A stretch of DNA of 36,073 nt from a bacterium (GTDB taxonomy: Bacteria; Elusimicrobiota; Elusimicrobia; UBA1565; UBA9628), in NCBI GenBank assembly GCA_021806745.1, contig JAJZQS010000019.1, positions 1-36,073 of the forward strand, in the 5' to 3' direction. The notes beneath the pieces are model-generated. The model was not told the DNA's origin. It saw nothing but the letters and a program-made list of their open reading frames with translations, and did no database searches. Below are positions 1-14,769 of the stretch, piece after piece (positions within the stretch are counted from its first letter, which is position 1; every line of letters begins with the position of its first letter). The translations under genes were made by a program, and so were the position numbers.

Positions 1-3000
1 GACGCCGCGGGCAACACCGCGGGATTTACCCTGGGCGCTTTTCCGGGTTCGCCGGCGCCGCAGACGCCGAGCGCGCAGGCGCGGCTGTTTTCGACCGGTT
101 TGTACACGGGGATGTTCTCGATCGACTTCAGCTCGCTTCCCGCGGGCGGGCAGCTGAACGGCAGCGTGGTGACCGATTCCCAGGCCACCGGTTTGGCCAG
201 CGGAAGCTACATGACGCCGATCTACGACATCACGCAGTCCTCGGGTCTGCCGGGGAGCATGATCCGCGTCGGCCAGTTCACGGATCCCGTGCAGAACATA
301 ATCTCGACGTATACCGCGTACGCCCTTGGCGAGGGTTTTGGGACGACGCTCATCTCAGGGCCGACGACAAGCCTGTATGCGGCGGTGAGTCTCATGAACG
401 CCGAGATCGACGTGGTTACCGGCAACAAACCCGATCTCAGCGATGGCGTTTCGTCGGTTTTGTACAAGAACGCAAGTCTGCCCATGACCTGCGATTCGAA
501 CGGCCTCAACTGCACCGGCGATCTTTATCTGGGCAGCGGGCAATTCGCGCCGTCGGTCTCGACGGCCCGGGTTCTCCAGCGATATTTCCGCCTGAAGATC
601 TCGGTTTCTCCGGACGTGGACGAAAACGCCATCGCCGAGTGCACTCTGTATGCATCCGACGGTACGACATGCTTGCAAGGCCACCCGCTGGTTCCGGTCA
701 TCGCCGCCTTCGGCGGCGAGATCTTCGGCCTGCAGACCAATCAGTTCTCGGGGCCGCAAAGCTCGTTTCAGTTCGAGCCCGGCCCCGACCAAAGCGCGCC
801 CATCGCTCCGGGGCTATCCATCGCGGGACTGGACGTGACCGCGCCTGGCTCGCTGAGCGTCACTGTCGGCGGCGTGCGGCCCGACCCCGGCTACATGGCG
901 GCCCCGGGCTCGGCCTACAAGTTCACCGACGCGCCCTTCTACGTCCCGCCCATGAACGTCTCCATGAACTTCTCGACCTTCGGACTCAGCGCGGGCCAAG
1001 CCAAATACGCGCGCATCGTCTCAGAGGATGCCTACGGCAATCTTTCGGCGCCGCTGGCGGCGACCGTCAGCGGCGACACGGTGACTTTTCCCATCGACCC
1101 GTCCCAGGCGCCCGTCACCATCACCATGCTGGCCCCGCGCGCGCAAAATCCGATCTATTTGCAGGCGGGCCAGGCAAGCTTTCTCTATGACGGATCGCAA
1201 AACGCGCCAGTGACTTTCCAGGCCGCCTCCGCTTCGCCCGCCTTGTCGGTCCTGCTGGCCTCGGCCGCCGCGCAAGGACTCGCGCCGCTGAGCCCCGTCG
1301 TCTCGCTGACGGTCAGCAGTTCTACGGTCTACGGCTCGAACTCGCTTCTGCTCCCCTACACGCCCCAGCCGGGCCTGACGACCGTCGCGATCTATCAGTT
1401 GACGCCAGGCTCGCCTGCCCGGCGCGCGGCCGATCAGTTTTCGGGATACCAGTATCCCGCCGTATCTGCGGGCCTAGGCGCCGGTGCCGGCGGCTACTAC
1501 GCCGTGTTCGGCAGCTCGAGCATCCCTCAAGCCCCCGACGCCACGCCTCCGGTCACGAGCATCGAGTTCGCGTCGCTGATCTCCTCGTCGCCGGGCGCGG
1601 CATATACGATCGCCCTCGGCGCGCAAATCTCATTTTCCGCCGTCGATCCCGTGGTCGCCGGTGCGCTGACTTCCGGCGTCTCCGCCACCTATTACGGCAT
1701 CGACGTCGATCCCCTTTCGCCCGCCTGCCAAGCCGTCGCGTTCAGCAGTTCGGCGCCCGCTGGCACGTGCGCCAACGACGTTTACGGCGGGCCGTTCGCC
1801 GTCTCCGTCGGCACGCATACGATTTATTATTTTTCTAAGGACAACGCCGGGAACATCGAATCCCTTAAGCAAGCCTTTCTGACGGTCGTCTCGACTTCCG
1901 CATCCGCAGGCTCCGGCCTCAAGGGCTTGGCCTTGGCCGCGGACGCCGGCGGGACTTTGTGGGAGGTGGCCGACGCGGGCGGCGAGATCGTGGTCGGCCG
2001 CTACTCGCTGTCCAACGGCGTTGCGACGCCGCTGAGCTCGGCCAACCTCGGCCCCGACCCCCAGGTCGGGGCTTGGAGCCTGCAGTTCGACGCGTCCGGC
2101 AACGCCTACGCGATCGGCGACTCGTCGGCGGGCGCCGTCGCCGCAGCGGCCGTCTACGAGTTGAACTCGTCGGGCGTGCCGGTCTCGAGCGCGGCTTACG
2201 CGGCTTCCGGCGGCGTCTCGGCGCTGGTTTTCGGCTCGGACGCCAAGCTGTGGGCCGTCGGCGCAATCGCGTCGGGCTCGCCGGGACAGCCCGGCTTTTC
2301 CGCGGAACTGGCGCTGTGGCGTTACGCGCCCGCCGGTCCCCTGACGCTGGCCGCGACCTACGGCGGAGGCGCTGCCGTCGCCGCAGGAATGGCGGCAGGC
2401 TTGCTTGACGGCGACTCGTATGTCGCGGGCTATGTTGGAAGCGCCTCCTCGTCGACGCTGGCTTTGTCGCTGTGGCGCTTCGACGGCGGCACGGGCGCTC
2501 TCAAGGCCGGGCCGTTCGCGACTCCAGGCGAGCTTGCCTTGAGCAGCGCCACGAGCAACCTGGGCGCTGCGCTTGCGATCTCGTCGGGGTCGGCCTTCGC
2601 CTTCGGTCAGCGCACGGGCGCTTCCGGCGAGAGCGACCTGGAACTCGCGGTGTTCGACGCCTTCGGTCGCGTCTTGGTCGACCGCTACGAGACCGCGGGC
2701 GCGGGCGCCGACCTCCTGCCGCGCGCGGCCGTCGACGACCCCGGCGGCGGCGTGGACGTCCTGGTCCAGGCCCGGACCGCGGCGGGGCCCGCCTTCGGCG
2801 TGGCGCGCTACGGCGCCGACGGCAGCTTTAAGGGCGCAACCACCGACGGGCAATCCGAAGGCGCCCACGGCCTTGCCGCGGCGGGCGGGCGGCTGTGGGT
2901 GGCCGTGGACGGCTCAACGGTCCCGTATGCCTTCGCCGCCGCCAAGACGGTGGCGCTCCAGGACGTTCTCGCCAGTTCCGCGCCCGCCGACGTCCTGCCG

Positions 3001-5841
3001 CCGCGCACCAGTCTCGTGATCGGAACGCCGAGCGTCGCCGAGTCGTCGTTCACGTTCATCTCGACTTTTACCGCTCTGTCGCTGAGCGCCGTCGACGACG
3101 CGCAAGTCGTCGGCGACGGGGCGGGCGTGGGCGTGGCCGCGACCTATGTGGCCGTGGACACCTCGTCGTTTTCCGTCTACCGCTCCAGCTTCGTCTTGAC
3201 TTCCACCGGTACGCACGTGATTTCGTTCTACTCGGTGGACTTGGACAGCCATACGGAAGTCGCCCACAGCAGCGCGGTCTTCGTGGCCGCCCCGCCCAGC
3301 CTCGCCTTCATTCCGCCCGCGGGCAGCACGATCACGGTCTCAACGCCCACTTTGTCGGCGGTCTACTACGCCGCCGACGGGATATCGACCGCGACCTTGT
3401 CTTTCTCGCTTGACGGCGTGGTCGTGACCACGCGGGCATACGTCTCGTTATCCTCGGCCGAGGTCGTGATGCCGTTCGCGTTGTCCCAAGGCACCCACAC
3501 CATGACCGCGCAGGTCGCCGACCTGCTGGGGCTGACGGCGAACGCCGCGTCGACGTTCGACCTCGATTCGATTCCGCCGGTCACGACCCTGCTTGTGGAC
3601 GGCTTGCCCGCCTCGACGACCGATTTGTTGCTCGTGTCGACCGACACGCTGAGCTTCGTCGCCATCGACACGGGAACGGGCGTTGCCGCGACATACTATT
3701 CCATCGATTTGTCGTCGTTCGCCGTCTACGCGTCTTCGTTCTCGTTGGTCGGCGGTACGCATGCCGTTTCGTTTTATAGTCGCGACTACGCGGGCAACCT
3801 CGAAGCCCGAAAATCCGTCTTTCTGTTGGTGTCGTCCACCGGCACGCCGGAAGGTCTTCTCTCCGTGATCCTTTGGCCCGGCGGCGTCGGCGTGGAGCAA
3901 GCCGTGGGGCTGAGTCCGCAAGTGCTCGGCATCGCTGAGGGTCCCGGCGTCGCGCCCTGGACGCTGGGCGTCGCCGCGGGGACTTCCACCGCCGTCGGCC
4001 TCAAGACCATATCCTCCGGCGCCGGCGACGCGTCCGGCGCGCTCGGCGCCTGGAACACCACTGGCGCTTCTGGGCCGCAGACGCTGCAGCTCCTCGTGAG
4101 CGATGCGCTGGGCGGCACGGCCGTGTCCACCGCGCCCGCCTTCGCCGGGGCGCCGGTGTATGCCGGCTCTCTCGGCGCGGGCTTCGCCGACTGGAACATC
4201 CCGGTTCTCCATGAGCCCACCGGCCTCGCCGTTCGCTCCGACGGGAATCTCTGGGTGGACATGGCGAGCGGCGAGCTCATCTTGATGAGCTCCTCCGGGA
4301 CCGTGCTCGCCCAGGAAGGCGGCGGCGAGTCTCGCGCCCACGACCGCGACGGATCGTCGCTGCGCCTTCAAGACCCGCACGGCCTGGCGCTCGACGCCAC
4401 CGGGTATTTATATGTGGCCGACACGGGCAATAACCGCGTGTTGAAGCTTTCGATCGACGGCGGCTCCGTGCTCACGCCGTACGGCGGTTCCGACTTGAAA
4501 CGCCCCTACTCCGTCGCCGTCGACACCGACGGCACGGTGTATGTCGGCGATGTCGGCGACGGCCGCGTGGCGGCGTTCTCCAATTCCGGCGCCTTCCTCC
4601 GTCGCTTCGGCGTGGCCAGTTCCAGCTCGGAACTGCGCGGACTCGCGCTGACCTATCGAGGGTTGTGGGTCTCCGACCGCGGCCGCAATGAAATCGACCT
4701 GTGGTCGCGCGCGGGAGCGCTGCTTCAGACGATCACCGCCGCCCAAGCGCCGGCCGGCGAGCTCACGCGCGTGCGCACGCTGACGGCCGACGCGCTCGGC
4801 GCTTTGTATGTGATCGAGTCCGACCGAGACCGCGTCCAGAAGTTCGACCCGCTGGGCGACGGCCTGCTGGCCTTCGGAGCGCCCGCGCAGTATTCCCGCG
4901 AGCAGCGCTGGTGGCATCGCTACCTGACCGCGCCCTCGGCCGCGGCCATCGCCCCCGACGGCACGCTGTGGGTGGCCGACCGCGGGGCGGACCGACTGGT
5001 GCGCTTCGCCTTGCCCGGCGCGCCCGGAACTTCCCCGGCGCCCGACCAGCCGCCGCCGGGCCCGACCCCGCCCGTCGCGCGCAACATCGACCCCGACGAC
5101 GGCGGCGCGATTTGGCGCAGCGACGGCACGGGCGTGCAGGTTCCGCCGGGAAATCAAGGCTTGACCGTGGGCATCGATCAGGCCGCGGCGGGCGCGGACC
5201 TCTCCTCGCGCCAGTCCCAGCGCCAGACCCAAAATTTGTCGGCCGCCGCCGCGGAGGTGGACTTCGAGCCCAGCGGCGCGATGTTCGCTTCTCCCGTCAC
5301 GCTTTCGCTCGCCTACGACCCCCTCCAGGTCGCCCAGGCCTCGCTCGACGAGTCCTCACTGCAAGTCTACTGGTGGAACGCGAACGCCAAGCAGTGGGTG
5401 GCGCTGCCCTCGACCGTGGACACCGCGGCCAAGGTGGTGCGCGCGCAGACCTCGCACTTCTCGCTGTATCAGGCCATGGCCCCGCAAGTCCAGCCCCTGG
5501 CCTCCGGCGGCGGCGCCTACGACGCGTTCGGCCTGCGCGCCCATTACGCCTTCCCCAATCCCAGCCGCAGAGGCGCCGCGGTGGATTTCCGCATCCAGAC
5601 CGGCCTGGCCGACTCGGTGGACTTGCGCGTCTATAGTTTGACCGGCCGCAAGGTCTTGTCGACCACGCTCACGAGCGTGCAGTTCCTCGACGACGGCAAC
5701 GGGCTCGGCGCCCAGGACACCTACGACTACCTCTGGAACGTGGGCGGGGTGGGCTCGGGCGTCTACACCTACGTCTTCGTCGCGCACAAGAACGGCCAGC
5801 ACGACATCTCGGCCTCGGGTCGAGTGGGGATCATCAAGTGA
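1..5841 (+). CDS. Giant secreted modular protein: Ig-like repeats, two beta-propellers, FlgD-like C-terminal domain (5' end outside window)
   Basis: The frame is open from base 1 to the TGA at 5839-5841 with no stop, and the residues before the first in-window start codon (TTG at 100) already look like the end of an extracellular module (DAAGNTAGF). The gene therefore begins upstream. Visible order: an unrecognised N-terminal region; an Ig-like module (1537-1893); a repetitive propeller-like region (about 1915-2965) with recurring LWR, YGADG and LWV strands; two more Ig-like modules (2989-3291, 3565-3834); a six-blade NHL-type propeller (about 4190-5020) with motifs such as YVADTGNNRV; a beta domain ending HFSLYQAM (about 5080-5490); and a FlgD/sorting-like domain (5524-5838) with YAFPNPS, SLTGRKV and SGVYTYVF. 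It is Ser/Thr/Ala-rich with few Cys, typical of surface proteins. It probably acts outside the cell; the ligand is unknown. It overlaps the next gene by 4 bp. Confidence 0.85.
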   Translation, partial: DAAGNTAGFTLGAFPGSPAPQTPSAQARLFSTGLYTGMFSIDFSSLPAGGQLNGSVVTDSQATGLASGSYMTPIYDITQSSGLPGSMIRVGQFTDPVQNIISTYTAYALGEGFGTTLISGPTTSLYAAVSLMNAEIDVVTGNKPDLSDGVSSVLYKNASLPMTCDSNGLNCTGDLYLGSGQFAPSVSTARVLQRYFRLKISVSPDVDENAIAECTLYASDGTTCLQGHPLVPVIAAFGGEIFGLQTNQFSGPQSSFQFEPGPDQSAPIAPGLSIAGLDVTAPGSLSVTVGGVRPDPGYMAAPGSAYKFTDAPFYVPPMNVSMNFSTFGLSAGQAKYARIVSEDAYGNLSAPLAATVSGDTVTFPIDPSQAPVTITMLAPRAQNPIYLQAGQASFLYDGSQNAPVTFQAASASPALSVLLASAAAQGLAPLSPVVSLTVSSSTVYGSNSLLLPYTPQPGLTTVAIYQLTPGSPARRAADQFSGYQYPAVSAGLGAGAGGYYAVFGSSSIPQAPDATPPVTSIEFASLISSSPGAAYTIALGAQISFSAVDPVVAGALTSGVSATYYGIDVDPLSPACQAVAFSSSAPAGTCANDVYGGPFAVSVGTHTIYYFSKDNAGNIESLKQAFLTVVSTSASAGSGLKGLALAADAGGTLWEVADAGGEIVVGRYSLSNGVATPLSSANLGPDPQVGAWSLQFDASGNAYAIGDSSAGAVAAAAVYELNSSGVPVSSAAYAASGGVSALVFGSDAKLWAVGAIASGSPGQPGFSAELALWRYAPAGPLTLAATYGGGAAVAAGMAAGLLDGDSYVAGYVGSASSSTLALSLWRFDGGTGALKAGPFATPGELALSSATSNLGAALAISSGSAFAFGQRTGASGESDLELAVFDAFGRVLVDRYETAGAGADLLPRAAVDDPGGGVDVLVQARTAAGPAFGVARYGADGSFKGATTDGQSEGAHGLAAAGGRLWVAVDGSTVPYAFAAAKTVALQDVLASSAPADVLPPRTSLVIGTPSVAESSFTFISTFTALSLSAVDDAQVVGDGAGVGVAATYVAVDTSSFSVYRSSFVLTSTGTHVISFYSVDLDSHTEVAHSSAVFVAAPPSLAFIPPAGSTITVSTPTLSAVYYAADGISTATLSFSLDGVVVTTRAYVSLSSAEVVMPFALSQGTHTMTAQVADLLGLTANAASTFDLDSIPPVTTLLVDGLPASTTDLLLVSTDTLSFVAIDTGTGVAATYYSIDLSSFAVYASSFSLVGGTHAVSFYSRDYAGNLEARKSVFLLVSSTGTPEGLLSVILWPGGVGVEQAVGLSPQVLGIAEGPGVAPWTLGVAAGTSTAVGLKTISSGAGDASGALGAWNTTGASGPQTLQLLVSDALGGTAVSTAPAFAGAPVYAGSLGAGFADWNIPVLHEPTGLAVRSDGNLWVDMASGELILMSSSGTVLAQEGGGESRAHDRDGSSLRLQDPHGLALDATGYLYVADTGNNRVLKLSIDGGSVLTPYGGSDLKRPYSVAVDTDGTVYVGDVGDGRVAAFSNSGAFLRRFGVASSSSELRGLALTYRGLWVSDRGRNEIDLWSRAGALLQTITAAQAPAGELTRVRTLTADALGALYVIESDRDRVQKFDPLGDGLLAFGAPAQYSREQRWWHRYLTAPSAAAIAPDGTLWVADRGADRLVRFALPGAPGTSPAPDQPPPGPTPPVARNIDPDDGGAIWRSDGTGVQVPPGNQGLTVGIDQAAAGADLSSRQSQRQTQNLSAAAAEVDFEPSGAMFASPVTLSLAYDPLQVAQASLDESSLQVYWWNANAKQWVALPSTVDTAAKVVRAQTSHFSLYQAMAPQVQPLASGGGAYDAFGLRAHYAFPNPSRRGAAVDFRIQTGLADSVDLRVYSLTGRKVLSTTLTSVQFLDDGNGLGAQDTYDYLWNVGGVGSGVYTYVFVAHKNGQHDISASGRVGIIK
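1537..1893 (+). repeat. Ig-like module 1 of the giant surface protein
   Basis: First of three related segments. It begins D-x-x-PPVTS, has the core ATYYGID, then GTHTIYYFSKDNAGN and an FLTV end strand. It is longer than the other two because of an insert with two Cys residues (CQAV, GTCAND), which could form a disulfide. The pattern matches bacterial Ig-like/cadherin-like modules found in tandem in surface proteins. The copies are diverged at DNA level, so this is a protein repeat and not a recent duplication. Confidence 0.7.
2989..3291 (+). repeat. Ig-like module 2 of the giant surface protein
   Basis: Second copy of the module: it opens D-x-LPPRTSL, has AATYVAVDTSSFSVY in the middle and GTHVISFYSVD near the end. 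It follows directly after the first propeller-like region, so it probably acts as a rigid spacer between propeller and downstream modules. Confidence 0.7.
3565..3834 (+). repeat. Ig-like module 3 of the giant surface protein
   Basis: Third and shortest copy, opening DSIPPVTTL, with AATYYSIDLSSFAVY and GTHAVSFYSRDYAGN and ending in FLLV. It is closest to copy 2 in the core. A related but partial strand set between copies 2 and 3 (about 3295-3564) has a GTHTMTAQVAD strand and may be a further diverged module. Confidence 0.7.
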
Positions 5842-8723: not shown

Positions 8724-9107
8724 CTAGGGCCTCATCGCCGTGACCTCGATCTCGACGGCCGCGCCCTTGGGAAGCGCCGCCACCTGCACCGTCGAGCGGG
8801 CCGGGTACGGAGCGCGGAAATGCCGCGCGTAGACCTCGTTCATCGCAGCGAAGCTCCCGAGATCGGTCATGAACACCGTGGTCTTGACCACGTCGTCCAT
8901 CGTCAGCCCCGCGGCCTCCAGCGCCGCGCGAACATTGAGCAGGCAGCGCTGCGTCTGCGCGGCCGCGTCGCCGCCGACGAAGGCTCCCGACGGGTCCAGC
9001 GGGATTTGTCCCGACAGGAACACGAAGGAGCCCGCGGAAATTCCCTGCGAGTACGGCCCGATCGCGGCCGGCGCGCGGTCGGTGACGACGGCGGACTTGG
9101 TCGCCAC
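8724..9107 (-). CDS. ridA: RidA family enamine/imine deaminase
   Basis: 127 residues, the standard family length, from GTG 9107 located 2 bp after the rho stop. RidA hydrolyses reactive 2-aminoacrylate and related enamines made by PLP enzymes. Family marks are IGPYSQ near the N-terminus, FLSGQIP, the DVVKTTVFMTDL segment, and PARSTVQVAALPKGAAVEIE, whose Arg corresponds to the substrate-carboxylate-binding Arg105 of E. coli RidA. The protein is cytoplasmic and should form a trimer. The frame stays open upstream across rho, but that is out of frame with rho and is not coding. Confidence 0.92.
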   Translation of the reverse strand: MATKSAVVTDRAPAAIGPYSQGISAGSFVFLSGQIPLDPSGAFVGGDAAAQTQRCLLNVRAALEAAGLTMDDVVKTTVFMTDLGSFAAMNEVYARHFRAPYPARSTVQVAALPKGAAVEIEVTAMRP

Positions 9108-9109
9108 GC

Positions 9110-10291
9110 CTACCTCAGCGCCGCCATCAGCTTTTCGTTGAGCTTGTGCGCGCGCATGAGCTCGGTCAGCGCGCGGATGGCCTCCAGGTCCCCGAGCCCC
9201 GCCAGGTGGCGGCGCAGCTTGTAGACGCCCTCCAGGTAGTCCTTGGGGAAGAGCTTTTCTTCCTTGCGCGTGCCGCTGTCGCGCACCTTCAGCGCCGGGA
9301 AGATGCGCATCTCGGCGGCCTGCCGATAGAGCACGAGCTCCATGTTGCCGGTGCCCTTGAACTCCTGGAAGATGATGTCGTCCATCTTGGAGCCCGTGTC
9401 GACGAGGATCGTGGCCAGTATCGTCAGCGAGCCGCCGTTTTCGATCTTGCGCGCGGCGCCGAAAAAGCGCCGCGGAATCTCCATGGCGCGGCTGTCGAGG
9501 CCGCCCGACATCGTGCGGTTGCCGGTCGCGAACTGGTTGTAGACCCGCGCCAGACGCGTCAGCGAGTCCAGCAGGATGAACACGTCCTCGCCCGCGACCA
9601 CCTTCTCCAAGGCCGTGCGCATCAGGTCCTCGGCGATCTTCCTGTGCTGCTGGTAGCTCTGGTCCGAAGACGACGCCCAGACCTCGGCCGGCACCGAACG
9701 CTTGAAGTCGGTGACCTCCTCGGGGCGCTCGTCGACGAGCAGGCAATACTGGCGGACCTTCGGATCGACCGCGTGCACCGCGTTCGAGATCTGCTTGAGA
9801 AAGGTCGTCTTGCCGGCCTTGGGCGGCGCCACGATCAGACCGCGCGTACCCTTGCCGATGGGCGCAAGCAAATCCAGCGCGCGCATCGACGGATCGTTGG
9901 AGCCCTTCTCCATCTGCAGCCACTGGTAGGGGTCGACCGGCGTCATCTGGGAGAACTTCTGCTCCACCTCGGAGCGCTGGGGCGCCTGAGGCGCCTGCGC
10001 CGGGCGCTGCCCCTGGCCGCGATTTTGATTCTGGTAGCCCTGGTAGCCGCCTTGGCGCTGCGGCTGGGGTTGACCTTGATTCTGGCCGCCGCCCCCGCCG
10101 CCGCGATGGCGCCGCCGACGGCGCCGCCCGCCGTGATGGTGCTGCTGGCCGTTGTGGAAATTCCCGCCGGGCTGACCCGGCTGGCCTTGGGGCTGGGGAG
10201 GCTGACCTCCGCCCGCGGGGCCCGAGGGCGCACCGCCTTGAGGAACCTGCCCCGATTGCCCGCCCTGTGCTCCCGTGTTCTCTTCGTTCAT
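9110..10291 (-). CDS. rho: Transcription termination factor Rho, lacking the OB-fold RNA-binding domain
   Basis: 393 residues from ATG 10291 with GGGAGAGG upstream. Residues 1-105 are low-complexity Gly/Gln/Pro with a block of six Arg near residues 56-61 and His-rich patches. From about 110 the canonical Rho connector and RecA-type ATPase follow: Walker A APPKAGKT (155-162), DERPEEVT, Walker [13 protein letters not shown]-loop [25 protein letters not shown]-loop FKGTGNMEL and SGTRKEE. The helical Rho_N and cold-shock-like OB fold that normally hold the primary RNA site are absent. No coding room exists for them, because murI ends 19 bp upstream of the start. The disordered arm may supply RNA binding instead (inference). 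Hexameric ATPase and helicase function should be intact. Confidence 0.95.
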
Positions 10292-10310
10292 TGTGTCACC
10301 TCTCCCGATC

Positions 10311-11108
10311 TCACGCGTCGAGGCGGTGCAGACGCACCGCGTCGACGACGCCTCCCAGCATGCGGCGGCCCAGACGGCGAAATCTCTCCGGCGCGTCGGA
10401 CGCCCAGAACTCCCGGCGCCCTCGCCGACCGGCGGGCGCGCGAAGGCCCGCGCGCGACAGCGCGGCCTCGGCGGCGCGCGCGGTCTCCTCGGCCGAGTCC
10501 ACCAGCGCCACGCGCGGGCCCATCGCCCGCGCGATCTCGCGCTTCAAGTACGGATAGTGGGTGCAGCCCAAGATCAGCGCGTCCACGCGCGCTTTCTTGA
10601 GCGGAGCCAAATAGCGCCGCGCCACCGCCGCCGCCACCGGACCGCTCCACCAGCCTTCCTCCACCAGCGGCACGAACAGCGGGCAGGCCGCGGCCGTCGC
10701 CGTGGCGCCCAGCCGGCGCAGGGCGCGCGCGTAGGCGCCCGAGCGCACCGTGGCCTCCGTGCCGATCACGCCCACGCGTCGGCGTCCGGCCGCGGCGGCG
10801 GCGCGCGCTCCGGGCTCGATGACGCCGATGACCGGCACGCGCGCGGCGCGGCGGATGGCGGGCAGCGCCAGGGCCGAGGAGGTGTTGCAGGCCACCACCA
10901 GCAGCTTGATGCCCCGCCCGGCCAGGAAGCGCGCGGCCTGCGCCGAGAAGCGCGCGATCGCCTCCGGAGACTTCGAGCCGTAGGGCACGCGCGCGGTGTC
11001 GCCGAAATAGACGAGCGACTCCTCGGGCATGCGACGGGCCAGAGCCGCCAGCACCGTCAGGCCGCCCAGGCCGGAGTCGAACACGCCGACGGGCGCGGAA
11101 GGCTTCAT
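10311..11108 (-). CDS. murI: Glutamate racemase
   Basis: 265 residues. It makes D-glutamate for peptidoglycan stems. It carries FDSGLGGLTV at the N-terminus, the first catalytic Cys in VACNTSSA, the second in LGCTHYP, and YFGDTARVPYG, all family hallmarks. I chose ATG 11108, which overlaps the amidase stop as ATGA. An in-frame GTG at 11114 has better spacing to AAGGGG and would add two residues, and GTG 11123 is also possible. The C-terminus is Arg-rich. The position between a cell-wall amidase and rho fits the wall-synthesis gene run. Confidence 0.95.
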   Translation of the reverse strand: MKPSAPVGVFDSGLGGLTVLAALARRMPEESLVYFGDTARVPYGSKSPEAIARFSAQAARFLAGRGIKLLVVACNTSSALALPAIRRAARVPVIGVIEPGARAAAAAGRRRVGVIGTEATVRSGAYARALRRLGATATAAACPLFVPLVEEGWWSGPVAAAVARRYLAPLKKARVDALILGCTHYPYLKREIARAMGPRVALVDSAEETARAAEAALSRAGLRAPAGRRGRREFWASDAPERFRRLGRRMLGGVVDAVRLHRLDA

Positions 11109-12586
11109 CGGCACTTGCGCCACCCCTTCTTGCGCGCGTAGTCGCAGACTCCGTCGGCGACGCTGGCCACCGCGCGCTTGCGAAACGCTTCGGTGCGCAG
11201 CTTCGCCTCGTCGCGCGAATTACTGAGAAACGCCAGCTCCACCAGAATCGCCGGCGCGTGCGTGCCGCGCAGAACGTAGAAGCCCGCCTGCTTGGCGCCG
11301 CGGTCGGCCACGTTCAGATGTTTGGCCATCTCGCGCTCGACGAGCGCGGCGAACGGCGCGGACTCGTTGATCATCTCGGTCTTGGTCATCGCCAAGAGGA
11401 TCTGCCGGGCGGTCTCGTCCTCCGGTTTTTTCCCCTCCATCGCCAGCGGGGCGTTCTCGGCCGCGGCCAGCGCCTCGGCCTCGGGATCGGAGGCCGTCTC
11501 GGACACCGAGTACACCTCGAAGCCGCGCTCGTGGGGGTTTTTCGCCGAGTTGCAGTGCAGGGACACGAACAAATCCGCGTCCAGATCGTTGGCCGTCTTC
11601 GAGCGGTCCGACAGGGGAACGAACACGTCCCGCGAGCGCGTCAGCGCCACCTCGAAGCCGCGGGCGCGAAGCACCTTGGCCAGCGCCAACGCCGCCTTCA
11701 GCGTCACGTCCTTCTCGCGCGTGCCTCGCGTGCCGGTGGCGCCGGGGTCCTTGCCGCCGTGGCCCGCGTCGACGACCACGAGGCGCCGCTGCGAGGCCGC
11801 CGAGGTCGGGGCGGCGACCGCGTCGGAAAGCTCGGCGGCAGGCGGCGCGGCCGCTGCGCGCGGGTAGGCGTCGAGCTCCAGGCGGCGGGGATCGGAGAGC
11901 TCGACGGCACGCCACGCCGCGCCAGCGGCCGCCAGCTTGACGATCAGCCGCGCACCGCCCGCCTCCTGGACCGCCGCGTAGCCGCGCACCAGCCCCGCGC
12001 CCGCGGTCGGACTCGACGGCGCCACTCGCGCGAACGGGAAGGTCACGTCGACTTCCCCGGCGCCGCGCGCCGACGCACGCCACGAGACCCCGGGATCGAG
12101 CGCGACGACGACGCCGGCGCGGCCGGCGTCCTCGACGAGCTCCGGCGCGCCGACCGTGTCGCGCGCGGTCAGGCGCAGGGCCCGCCCGTCGGGGTCCAAG
12201 CGCGCGTCCATCCCGCACCAGCGCGCGAAATCCTCGGACAACACGAAGGACGCCGGCGCGAACGCGCGCCGTCCGGAAACCGAGAGACGACCGCCCATGT
12301 CGCACGGCTGGCCCTGGCAGACCGCGCGCGAGGAGCCGTCCGACAGCGCCAGCAAGCGCCCGCGAAGGGTCAGCGTCAACGCGCCCGACGCCTGCGACCA
12401 GTTCGCGCGGCCGCCGCACAGCCGGCCCAGCCGCGCCGCGTCGAGCTCCGGCCCTTCGGAGCCGGCTCGGCCGGCGACGGCGCCGAGGTCCCGGCCTTGC
12501 GCGTAGACCTCGACCGACGACGGGCCCAGCGGCGCGTGCGCGCACGCGCCGAGGATCAGGGCCGCCGCCGCCAGACGCAGCTTCAT
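11105..12586 (-). CDS. N-acetylmuramoyl-L-alanine amidase (Amidase_3), predicted lipoprotein
   Basis: 493 residues from ATG 12586, overlapping the RNase stop (ATGA). The N-terminus has a lipobox (LILGAC), so the protein should be lipidated at Cys15 and tethered in the periplasm. Residues about 25-260 resemble a copper-amine-oxidase-N-like/AMIN-type wall-binding region. The catalytic domain begins near 265 with VVVDAGHGGKDPG (zinc His), then TREKDVTL (zinc Glu), SLHCNSA (zinc His) and VELAFLSN (catalytic Glu). It cleaves the MurNAc-L-Ala bond, probably during cell separation or wall remodelling. Lipid anchoring plus the large N-terminal region distinguish it from free periplasmic AmiA/C. Confidence 0.92.
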   Translation of the reverse strand: MKLRLAAAALILGACAHAPLGPSSVEVYAQGRDLGAVAGRAGSEGPELDAARLGRLCGGRANWSQASGALTLTLRGRLLALSDGSSRAVCQGQPCDMGGRLSVSGRRAFAPASFVLSEDFARWCGMDARLDPDGRALRLTARDTVGAPELVEDAGRAGVVVALDPGVSWRASARGAGEVDVTFPFARVAPSSPTAGAGLVRGYAAVQEAGGARLIVKLAAAGAAWRAVELSDPRRLELDAYPRAAAAPPAAELSDAVAAPTSAASQRRLVVVDAGHGGKDPGATGTRGTREKDVTLKAALALAKVLRARGFEVALTRSRDVFVPLSDRSKTANDLDADLFVSLHCNSAKNPHERGFEVYSVSETASDPEAEALAAAENAPLAMEGKKPEDETARQILLAMTKTEMINESAPFAALVEREMAKHLNVADRGAKQAGFYVLRGTHAPAILVELAFLSNSRDEAKLRTEAFRKRAVASVADGVCDYARKKGWRKCR

Positions 12587-14769
12587 TCGAGCACGATCCT
12601 ATAGTCCTCCCAGGGCAGTTGCGCGTCGCCCTGGATCTTGATCGGCCGCACGATGTTTTTTTCGATGACCGACTGCTGGGCGCGGAACGCCTCGGCGACG
12701 GCGGGGTTGAGCAGGACGCGGATGGAGCCTCCCGGACGGCCGCCCGTCATTTCGACGATCTCGCGCTGGATTTTGATGCGCAAGGTCTCGGTGGACAGCA
12801 CCCGGCCCGAGGCGCGGCATTGCGGGCATTCGCTGGTCAGCAGCGCCGCCGTCGACACGCGCTTGCGCTCGCGCGTCAGCTCGATGAGACCCAGGCGCGT
12901 GATCGGCAGGATGCGGATCTTGGCCCGATCGGCGCGGCAGGCCTCGGCGAACGCCTCCATGACTTTCTGTCGGTTGGAGGCCTTGCGCATGTCGATGAAG
13001 TCCACGACGATGATGCCGCCGATGTTGCGCAGGCGCAACTGCCGGGCGACGGTCTGCGCGGCCTCGATGTTGGTCTGCGTGACGGTCTCTTCCTGCGACT
13101 TGGAGCCGGTGAAACGGCCGGTGTTGACGTCGATCGCGCACAAGGACTCCGCCTCCTGGATCACGATCGAGCCGCCGTTGGGCAGGGGCACCTTCGTCTC
13201 GCGGATGCCGGCGATCTCGCGCTCTATGTTGAACGCCTTGAAGATCGGAGTCTTGCCCTCGTAGCGGCGCACGCGCTCCTTGAGCTCGGGCGCGAAATCC
13301 TCGACGAAGCGCACGACCTCGGCATGCGCGTCCTTGTCGTCGATCAGGTAGACGTAGACTTGATCCGACATCAGGTCGCGCGCGATCTGCAGAGCCAGGC
13401 CCAGGTCGCGGTGCAGCAGCGCGGGTCCCGTCCCTTCGGCGTAGCCTTTTTCGATCTTCTGCCAGGCCTCGAGGAGGTACTTGACCTCGCGCTCGAGCTC
13501 CTCTTCGCTCGCGCCCTCGGCCTCGGTGCGCACGACCACGCCCTTGCCCGCGAGCTTTTCGGTCGACAGGCGCCGCACGATCTTGTCCAGGCGGTCTCGC
13601 TCCTGCTGGTCGGCGATGTGCTTGGACAGGCCGATGTCGGTTTGAAACGGCGTGAAGACCAGGTAGCGTCCGGGCAGCGTCACGTCCATCGTGACCTTGG
13701 GGCCCTTGGTGCTGATGGCCTCCTTGGCGACTTGGACCATGATCGTTTGTCCTTTTTTCAGCGTCGCGTCGATGGCCGCCCCCTTCTCGCCGAGGACGTC
13801 GGAGATGTAGAGGTAGGCGTTCTTCTCGAAGCCGATGTTGACGAACGCCGACGAGATGCCGGGCAGGACGTTCTCGACGACGCCGCGGTAGATGTTGCCG
13901 ACCACGTTCTGTCCGCCGCGGCGCTCCCAATGCAGCTCCGCGAGGCGGCCGTCCTCGATGATGGCCACGCGCGTCTCTTCGGCCGACGAGTTGGCCAAGA
14001 CCTCGCGTTTGACGGCGATCTTGGCGCCGCGCACCTCGTTGGTGCGCTCCGCGCCGTGGAAGCGGTCGTGGCGGTCATTTCGGTCGCGCCTGTCTCGGCG
14101 CTCGTCGCGGCGGCCCTCGCCCCGGCGGTCTTCATGCCGCTGCTCGCGCCGATCCTCCGGCCGCTCGTCGCGCCGGGCCTCGCGGCCCAGGTCGCGGTTG
14201 CGGCGCTCCTCCTCGCGACGGACCTCCGACGGCTCTTTGGGAGCCGCGGCGGGCGGCTCGGTCGGCGCGGGCGCGGACGGCGCCCCGGGCGCGGATTGCG
14301 CGGGGGAAGCGGCGGCCTGACCCCGCACCTCGGGCTGGCCGTTGGCGCCCTCGCGTCGGTCCCGCCCGCCTCGTCCGCGGCGGCGGCGGCGGCGGCGACG
14401 GCCCTCGCCCGGAACCCGCCCCGCTCCCTCGGCGGGCGCGCCCTGTCCGGTCACGGGCATCGCGGAAGACGCGGCGACTTGCGAAGCGGCGGCGGGCTGG
14501 TCGACGCCCTGCTCCTCGTCGCCCTCGTCGTCGGATTCATTTTCGGAGACGGGAGCGGGAGCGGCCGGCTGCGGGTCTCGCGGCGCGGGCGTCGGCGCGG
14601 GAGCCGGAGCGGCGATCGGCGCGGGAGCGGCCGCGGGAGCGGCGGCGGGCGCCGGCGCGCGCTCGACCACGCCGGGGGTGGAACCGTCGTGCACGCGCTC
14701 CAGGCGCGGCTTCGACGGCTCGGGCGTCTCGGTTTTCGGGGCTTGAGTCGAATCGAGTTCGTTGGACAT
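12583..14769 (-). CDS. rng: Ribonuclease E/G family endoribonuclease with long disordered N-terminal arm
   Basis: 728 residues. ATG 14769 is chosen for GGAG 5 nt upstream; ATG 14787 overlaps the rodA stop and is the alternative. Residues 1-244 are disordered: an Ala/Pro stretch, an acidic patch, a run of eight Arg, then a long Arg/Asp/Glu-rich segment. The catalytic part follows: S1 domain with GNIYRGVVENVLPG and FVNIGFEKNAYLY, metal-binding Asp547 (AIDVNTGR) and Asp590 (VVDFIDM), and a Zn-link Cys pair 648/651 (ECPQC). The 43-residue Asp spacing and the Asp-to-Cys spacing equal those of E. coli RNase E (D303, D346, C404), so the offset is exactly 244. There is no C-terminal degradosome arm. 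It acts in rRNA processing and mRNA decay. Confidence 0.93.
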   Translation of the reverse strand: MSNELDSTQAPKTETPEPSKPRLERVHDGSTPGVVERAPAPAAAPAAAPAPIAAPAPAPTPAPRDPQPAAPAPVSENESDDEGDEEQGVDQPAAASQVAASSAMPVTGQGAPAEGAGRVPGEGRRRRRRRRGRGGRDRREGANGQPEVRGQAAASPAQSAPGAPSAPAPTEPPAAAPKEPSEVRREEERRNRDLGREARRDERPEDRREQRHEDRRGEGRRDERRDRRDRNDRHDRFHGAERTNEVRGAKIAVKREVLANSSAEETRVAIIEDGRLAELHWERRGGQNVVGNIYRGVVENVLPGISSAFVNIGFEKNAYLYISDVLGEKGAAIDATLKKGQTIMVQVAKEAISTKGPKVTMDVTLPGRYLVFTPFQTDIGLSKHIADQQERDRLDKIVRRLSTEKLAGKGVVVRTEAEGASEEELEREVKYLLEAWQKIEKGYAEGTGPALLHRDLGLALQIARDLMSDQVYVYLIDDKDAHAEVVRFVEDFAPELKERVRRYEGKTPIFKAFNIEREIAGIRETKVPLPNGGSIVIQEAESLCAIDVNTGRFTGSKSQEETVTQTNIEAAQTVARQLRLRNIGGIIVVDFIDMRKASNRQKVMEAFAEACRADRAKIRILPITRLGLIELTRERKRVSTAALLTSECPQCRASGRVLSTETLRIKIQREIVEMTGGRPGGSIRVLLNPAVAEAFRAQQSVIEKNIVRPIKIQGDAQLPWEDYRIVLE

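Follow-up and report, generated by a model that had tools for sequence, protein, structure and literature searches.

A second Rho protein without a recognisable OB fold in Elusimicrobia

The gene that we have designated rho2 lies in the window, the whole stretch of 36,073 nucleotides that was analysed, and it raises the question of what a Rho protein would be, and what it would do in the cell, if the OB fold were missing from its N-terminus. The initial annotation read the encoded protein as a Rho with an intact ATPase core and no detectable OB fold, in which a disordered, G/Q/R-rich arm stands where the OB fold would be. It also proposed that RNA capture may rest on this arm, which might alter termination specificity or lead to condensates.

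The Rho core, the disordered arm and the missing OB fold

The features of the gene, with the evidence for each in brackets, were as follows:
9110..10291, minus strand: rho2, a Rho paralog of 393 amino acids without an OB fold (profiles, residue alignment, model, fold match)
9974..10291, minus strand: codons of residues 1-106, a disordered G/Q/P/R-rich arm in which RRRRRR forms residues 56-61 (composition, model, dN/dS)
9113..9973, minus strand: codons of residues 107-393, the Rho connector and RecA ATPase core (profiles, residue alignment, fold match)

The ATG of rho2 had a good ribosome-binding site, GGGAGAGG, 7 nucleotides upstream. The first 106 residues of the protein were of low complexity (27% G, 24% Q, 12% P and 10% R) and, by composition, positively charged. 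Matches to Rho profiles started at residues 102-104, and from approximately residue 104 the protein aligned with E. coli Rho from residue 124 onward. It scored 365.5 bits against the NCBIfam Rho model NF006886 (cut-off 315) and 347.6 against TIGR00767, also a Rho model, which was not reached (cut-off 509.45); Pfam returned the ATP-synt_ab core and weak P-loop matches only. An AlphaFold model built on a 30-row alignment had a pLDDT of <50 over residues 1-4 and 6-102 and mostly >90 in the core. The modelled core matched the solved E. coli Rho (E 4e-34, 46% identity) and the best 50 solved-structure matches returned by Foldseek were all Rho, so that the RecA core was recognised both by profile and by fold, and the disordered segment by pLDDT and composition. 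An identity as FliI or another type III secretion ATPase was considered and rejected, the best such match being 68.7 bits compared to 365.5 bits for Rho. A 484-amino acid open frame on the plus strand (9146-10600) runs antisense to nearly all of rho2 and probably arises as a side effect of GC-rich codon usage.

Alignment of 50 paralogs showed that the residues corresponding to E. coli K184, T185, E211, R212, D265, R269, T323, K336, R353 and R366 were kept in all 50, whilst D210 was kept in 48, K181 in 46 and G324 in 44. The residues that we take to be catalytic or to belong to the pore (Walker A and B, E211, the arginine finger R366 and T323 of the R-loop, E. coli numbering) were therefore present in 50/50 paralogs. 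The arginine finger of Rho acts across subunits. Relative to canonical Rho, the changes shared by 80% or more of the clade included M219F, T231S, F232S, K298R, E333Q and a gap at P279.

Neither Rho_N nor Rho_RNA_bind was found in the Rho2 protein by Pfam at E<=10, so the OB-fold primary RNA site (PF07497) was not detected. When all six frames of the entire assembly were scanned with PF07497, a single match was obtained, in another rho gene on contig C51, and none at rho2; as this was the sole match, there is no recognisable OB fold in another frame upstream of rho2. A local OB profile run against 47 paralogs scored all 47 below 0 bits or left them unreported (17 were reported, the best at -0.1 bits), and the paralog scores were like those of shuffled copies, of which the best reached 1.9 bits. 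PF07497 did not match the paralogs of L116, L119 and L121 (for L121, among the best 25 of 29 matched families). A further profile search returned no OB-fold family among the best 25 of 40 matched families and, being limited to those 25, does not fully show the absence. On the negative results of Pfam, the six-frame genome scan and the local OB profile, we reject an OB fold that has diverged or lies concealed within the arm or upstream of it. The reach of the OB profile is limited, as among 13 short Rho forms from Verrucomicrobiota judged to contain an OB-like part, four were outside the best 12 and one reached 7.8 bits. To exclude an even more diverged fold within a long arm we therefore rely mainly on the composition, on the model and on bare members of the clade, whose tails of 4-10 residues are too short to house an OB fold. 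The three elements of the initial annotation were each upheld: the intact core by the profiles, the conserved catalytic residues and the fold match to Rho; the arm by its composition and pLDDT; and the lack of a detectable OB fold by Pfam, the six-frame scan, the OB profile (47/47) and an AlphaFold model in which residues 1-102 are unstructured.

A second Rho of the genome, its distribution and its descent

The genome (2.78 Mb, 93.6% complete) contained one other Rho besides Rho2. This was a canonical Rho with an OB fold (112.6 bits) encoded on the minus strand of another contig (G000:C51:17023-18108), the only OB-fold match in the assembly, and it was 47% identical to Rho2 over the core. As the same genome holds this normal, OB-bearing Rho, rho2 is a paralog. 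The suggestion that Rho2 was the only Rho of the organism was not borne out; the initial annotation had itself named a second, normal rho as something that would refute the cell-wide inference, and such a gene is present.

Searching with the window protein and counting by hand, we found rho2 in 45/47 genomes of its order, with no match in G005 and G041. In a draw of 294 genomes from the phylum it was present in 42/43 genomes of the order, in 10/146 from the rest of the class and in 0/105 from the other classes. For these counts, also made by hand, each genome was judged on its best E-value; canonical Rhos reached ~2e-87 at best, so that a short paralog fragment at a contig end could be missed. 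The ten rho2 genomes outside the order (G048, G214, G050, G209, G276, G051, G239, G294, G265 and G170) belonged to six families. Sampling covered this Elusimicrobiota draw, Verrucomicrobiota, plasmids, phages and viral contigs, and a canonical Rho search of 80 loci from the genome-contig collection gave a match in all 80.

A canonical Rho accompanies Rho2 in most genomes. The paralog occurred with no other Rho match in G001, G009, G043 and G214, and G027 added only a 41-residue fragment; as these genomes (G001, G009, G043, G027 and G214) are 73, 70, 77, 92 and 91% complete, respectively, the missing canonical match may be due to assembly gaps. The pairing of the two Rhos and the retained arginine finger would fit a modulator, in which Rho2 subunits join canonical subunits in mixed rings with fewer OB sites, so that termination is damped or retuned, and in which a bare core carried by a phage could poison the ring of the host. 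We regard this as improbable, as Rho2 is only 47% identical to its canonical partner, the split is old and the five genomes without a full canonical match would lack that partner, although assembly gaps could explain them.

The stretch before the core was compared in 47 proteins, with starts chosen by position and Shine-Dalgarno sequence and with L017, L019 and L021 excluded because they had no readable start. It measured 4 residues in G214 and G294, 9-10 residues in G048, G239 and G265, and 24-142 residues in the rest, so that some members of the clade are bare cores of ~290 residues. With lengths ranging from 4 to 142 residues, the arm is an elaboration and not the mark of the clade, and its proposed role as an RNA-capture device replacing the OB fold cannot be general, given kin with tails of only 4-10 residues. 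Within the genus of the window a run of 6-7 arginines was present in all 14 arms.

Across eight species pairs the arm had dN values of 0.032-0.207 (dS 0.32-0.92), compared to 0.008-0.045 in the core (dS 0.23-0.90; dN/dS roughly 0.02-0.1). By these rates the core is under purifying selection, and the arm is faster-evolving than the core yet constrained. An assembly error at rho2 was also considered and was rejected as very unlikely, because the same architecture recurs in numerous independent genomes, both from the genus and from the family, and differences in both arm and core are mostly silent (dN<dS). That Rho2 is a decaying duplicate without function, as the loss of its N-terminal domains might suggest, is highly improbable given the low dN/dS of the core in all eight pairs and the retention of the gene in nearly every genome of the order.

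A tree of 74 Rho cores placed all 40 OB-less proteins in one clade (support 100/99), with 19 canonical Rhos of the phylum grouping with the canonical Rhos of other phyla. The Rho2 clade looks like a separate branch of the Rho family. In Verrucomicrobiota, 145 genomes were searched and 12 places were taken, picked mostly for short open frames. Of the 12 N-termini, nine were short forms with an OB-like part (judged partly by eye), two were canonical and one (G456) was cut by the contig end. A tree with more Verrucomicrobiota recovered the OB-less clade (23/23, support 100/100) and united these 23 proteins with 13 second Rhos of Verrucomicrobiota in one branch against 33 canonical Rhos (100/100). 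The nearest OB-bearing kin of the OB-less clade, as placed by the tree, are these short second Rhos, and the OB-less clade is, on the same grounds, part of an old Rho2 branch whose OB-bearing members have no N-terminal helix bundle. M219F, T231S, K298R and E333Q were common to the OB-less clade and four Verrucomicrobial forms.

Unlike the OB-less clade, the Verrucomicrobial short Rhos (L056, L064, L075, L088, L171-L178 and L180) have kept the OB fold, sometimes in a much diverged state; in L171-L178 and L180 the OB-like part was judged partly by eye. Pfam OB scores were 61.2 bits for L064, 53.1 for L056 and 23.7 for L088 against a cut-off of 27, and these three had the OB fold and no helix bundle match. 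Among the short forms the OB profile score drops from 53 bits to 7.8 or less. The genomes that hold L064, L056, L075 and L088 (G305-G308) each contained at least one further Rho match, and that of G305, the one examined, was canonical. A graded loss, of the helix bundle first and then of the OB fold, would be the simplest reading of the tree. The series from full Rho through a Verrucomicrobial short Rho2 with a diverged OB fold to the OB-less Rho2 suggests how the domain may have been lost.

Two OB-less Rhos were located on mobile elements:
2908-3867 of L213 (also L204 and L214): OB-less Rho2 of 319 amino acids on Spartinivicinus ruber plasmid pB, near holin and terminase genes
1477-2352 of L211: bare Rho core of 291 amino acids on a 132-kb viral contig

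The phage-like plasmid pB (102 kb) belongs to a gammaproteobacterium and its 319-amino acid protein is annotated as Rho. This protein gave no OB signal with the OB profile (-0.6 bits), fell inside the OB-less clade (100/98) and was 68% identical to the protein of G239; the same protein is held by an IMG/VR contig. The plasmid search returned 54 records at E<=1e-60, pB being the one examined among 15 listed, and the phage search matched 15 records. The L211 protein had no OB fold in its own frame (-0.5 bits) and grouped with Bacteroidota Rho (98/89, on a long branch) apart from the OB-less clade, so it probably represents a separate loss of the OB fold. Of nine Rho matches on viral contigs eight were examined: two were without an OB fold (the pB copy and L211), one was truncated (L206) and five had an OB fold. 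The two cases suggest that bare Rho motors may serve phages too. The presence of one OB-less Rho on a phage-like plasmid and of a second, unrelated one on a viral contig would also be in keeping with the poisoning of host rings considered above.

Gene neighbourhood and RNase E/G

The neighbours of rho2 in the window were as follows:
12583..14769, minus strand: RNase E/G gene, 728 amino acids with the chosen start, with an R-rich N-terminal arm before the catalytic core; candidate partner
11105..12586, minus strand: N-acetylmuramoyl-L-alanine amidase gene, amiC (PF01520)
10311..11123, minus strand: murI-like racemase gene, upstream of rho2 (PF01177)
8724..9107, minus strand: ridA-like gene, directly downstream of rho2 (PF01042)
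100-5841, plus strand: open frame of 1913 amino acids with NHL repeats (PF01436)

On the minus strand the order is RNase E/G, amidase, murI, rho2 and ridA, and by the open frame coordinates adjacent genes lie no more than 19 nucleotides apart or overlap by no more than that. Among 29 loci of the same family, ridA adjoined rho2 in 28 and murI did so in 23; five of the six loci without murI run into a contig end and L025 does not. DUF5677-like genes were seen between murI and rho2 in L125 and L131. The gene that follows rho2 in family f2 had weak similarity to HEAT repeats (L128 5851-7329 and L130 5667-7076).

RNase E/G was searched in 13 genomes of the order and was not found in one (G017); in the other 12 it shared contig and strand with rho2 (12/12). 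With the starts chosen, its N-terminal arm measured 89-252 residues in these 12 genomes and was R-rich in most, whereas outside the order there was no arm, or one of at most ~11 residues, in 10/10 genomes; the open frame extends further up in G084, G092 and G239. The RNase E/G arm of the window contained a run of eight arginines. Arms on both RNase E/G and Rho2 occur together in one lineage, which amounts to one contrast and not twelve, and in G209 Rho2 had an arm of 72 residues but RNase E/G was bare. In the five rho2 genomes outside the order for which RNase E/G was found, it was on another contig. The genes rne, amiC and murI ran together in G084, and rne and amiC in G055, and as both genomes are without rho2 the linkage of rne to rho2 may be incidental. 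The arrangement is consistent with rho2 having simply joined an older gene string, as it may have done.

The ten loci L114-L123, which lie outside the order, gave no match (E<=1e-6) to rne, amiC, murI, ridA or the downstream open frame of the window; their flanks span a few kb, with <400 bases upstream in L116, and no shared partner was seen by eye in their open reading frame lists. An RNase_T exonuclease open frame overlapped the stop of rho2 in G051 alone (L115 4999-5769). That Rho2 works with RNase E/G is conceivable but doubtful.

Proposed function and comparison with known systems

According to excerpts of PMC11718236, the N-terminal domain of Rho holds the primary RNA site and touches RNA polymerase in the allosteric pathway, and the C-terminal ring holds the secondary RNA site and the ATP pockets. 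As only the C-terminal half is present in Rho2, it should be able to form a ring and translocate but not to read rut. We consider it highly likely that the motor is retained and, with slightly more assurance, that rut-type recognition is gone. Rho2 would form a Rho-like ring and pull RNA through its pore with ATP, and would neither recognise C-rich rut sequences nor dock on RNA polymerase via an OB domain. In the family of the window the G/Q/R-rich arm, with its positive charge, would probably deliver RNA to the pore, and binding of RNA by this arm is reasonably likely; elsewhere in the clade the bare core would have to load on exposed RNA or receive RNA from a partner. On balance we lean towards Rho2 being a second, specialised Rho, a ring motor that loads without rut recognition. 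Its likeliest job would be to act in the remodelling or decay of RNA, and not to terminate transcription at rut sites; in the order it may do so together with RNase E/G from its own gene string.

Alternatively, Rho2 could be a second terminator that ends transcription and shares this work with canonical Rho, picking its RNAs by the arm, NusG or RNase partners and not by rut. The C-terminal motor and pore are intact and the arm carries a positive charge, and excerpts of PMC7819879 describe contact between the KOW domain of NusG and the C-terminal domain of Rho; a termination role via NusG is possible. A second terminator is nevertheless unlikely, since the N-terminal domain with the primary RNA site and the polymerase contact (excerpts of PMC11718236) is absent, the clade as a whole is altered at positions that canonical Rho conserves (T231, F232 and P279 among them) and some members have no long arm.

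The specialised ring motor can be extended, tentatively, to the clade as a whole: a Rho ring motor that does not serve as a rut-dependent terminator, from an old OB-less branch reduced to a core of as little as ~290 residues and spread over Elusimicrobia and a phage-like plasmid, that might serve RNA decay or remodelling (in the order with the arm-bearing RNase E/G) or, on phages, act against the host Rho. If true, this would show that the Rho motor can do without its primary RNA site. A conserved clade without the N-terminal domain, in which some members consist only of connector and motor, offers a natural test of the C-terminal ring alone. In the literature searched, no paper on an OB-less Rho was found among the matches listed.

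Canonical Rho (TIGR00767, NF006886; E. coli K-12 rho) shares with Rho2 the connector, the RecA core, Walker A and B, the catalytic Glu, the arginine finger and the Q-/R-loop region, the two having the same fold at 46% identity; unlike canonical Rho, the Rho2 proteins have no detected helix bundle or OB fold, form a separate clade and, in 43/50 OB-less members, have one residue fewer at E. coli P279. The NCBIfam family NF041509 ('paralog_Rho2', transcription termination factor Rho, short form) is also named for a second, shorter Rho and aligned with Rho2 over the core. Its model spans the OB part, as L088, with an OB-like stretch at residues 23-92, aligns from model position 1, whereas Rho2 is without an OB fold; at 299.7 bits, below the curated cut-off of 628, Rho2 is not a member.

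The Rho of the Rhodobacter capsulatus RNase E complex is reportedly a canonical Rho. That this complex contains Rho, which speaks for a possible partnership of Rho2 with RNase E/G, is taken from Jaeger 2001, as cited in an excerpt of PMC3071783. The likeness of the present locus to it consists of gene linkage and parallel arms only. The Rho of Bacteroides thetaiotaomicron is said to carry its disordered segment beside an intact OB fold. Like Rho2 it combines a Rho with a disordered, charged segment, and excerpts of PMC13269538 describe this intrinsically disordered region as forming condensates and this Rho as the essential Rho of the cell, whereas here the arm is G/Q/R-rich and belongs to an OB-less paralog.
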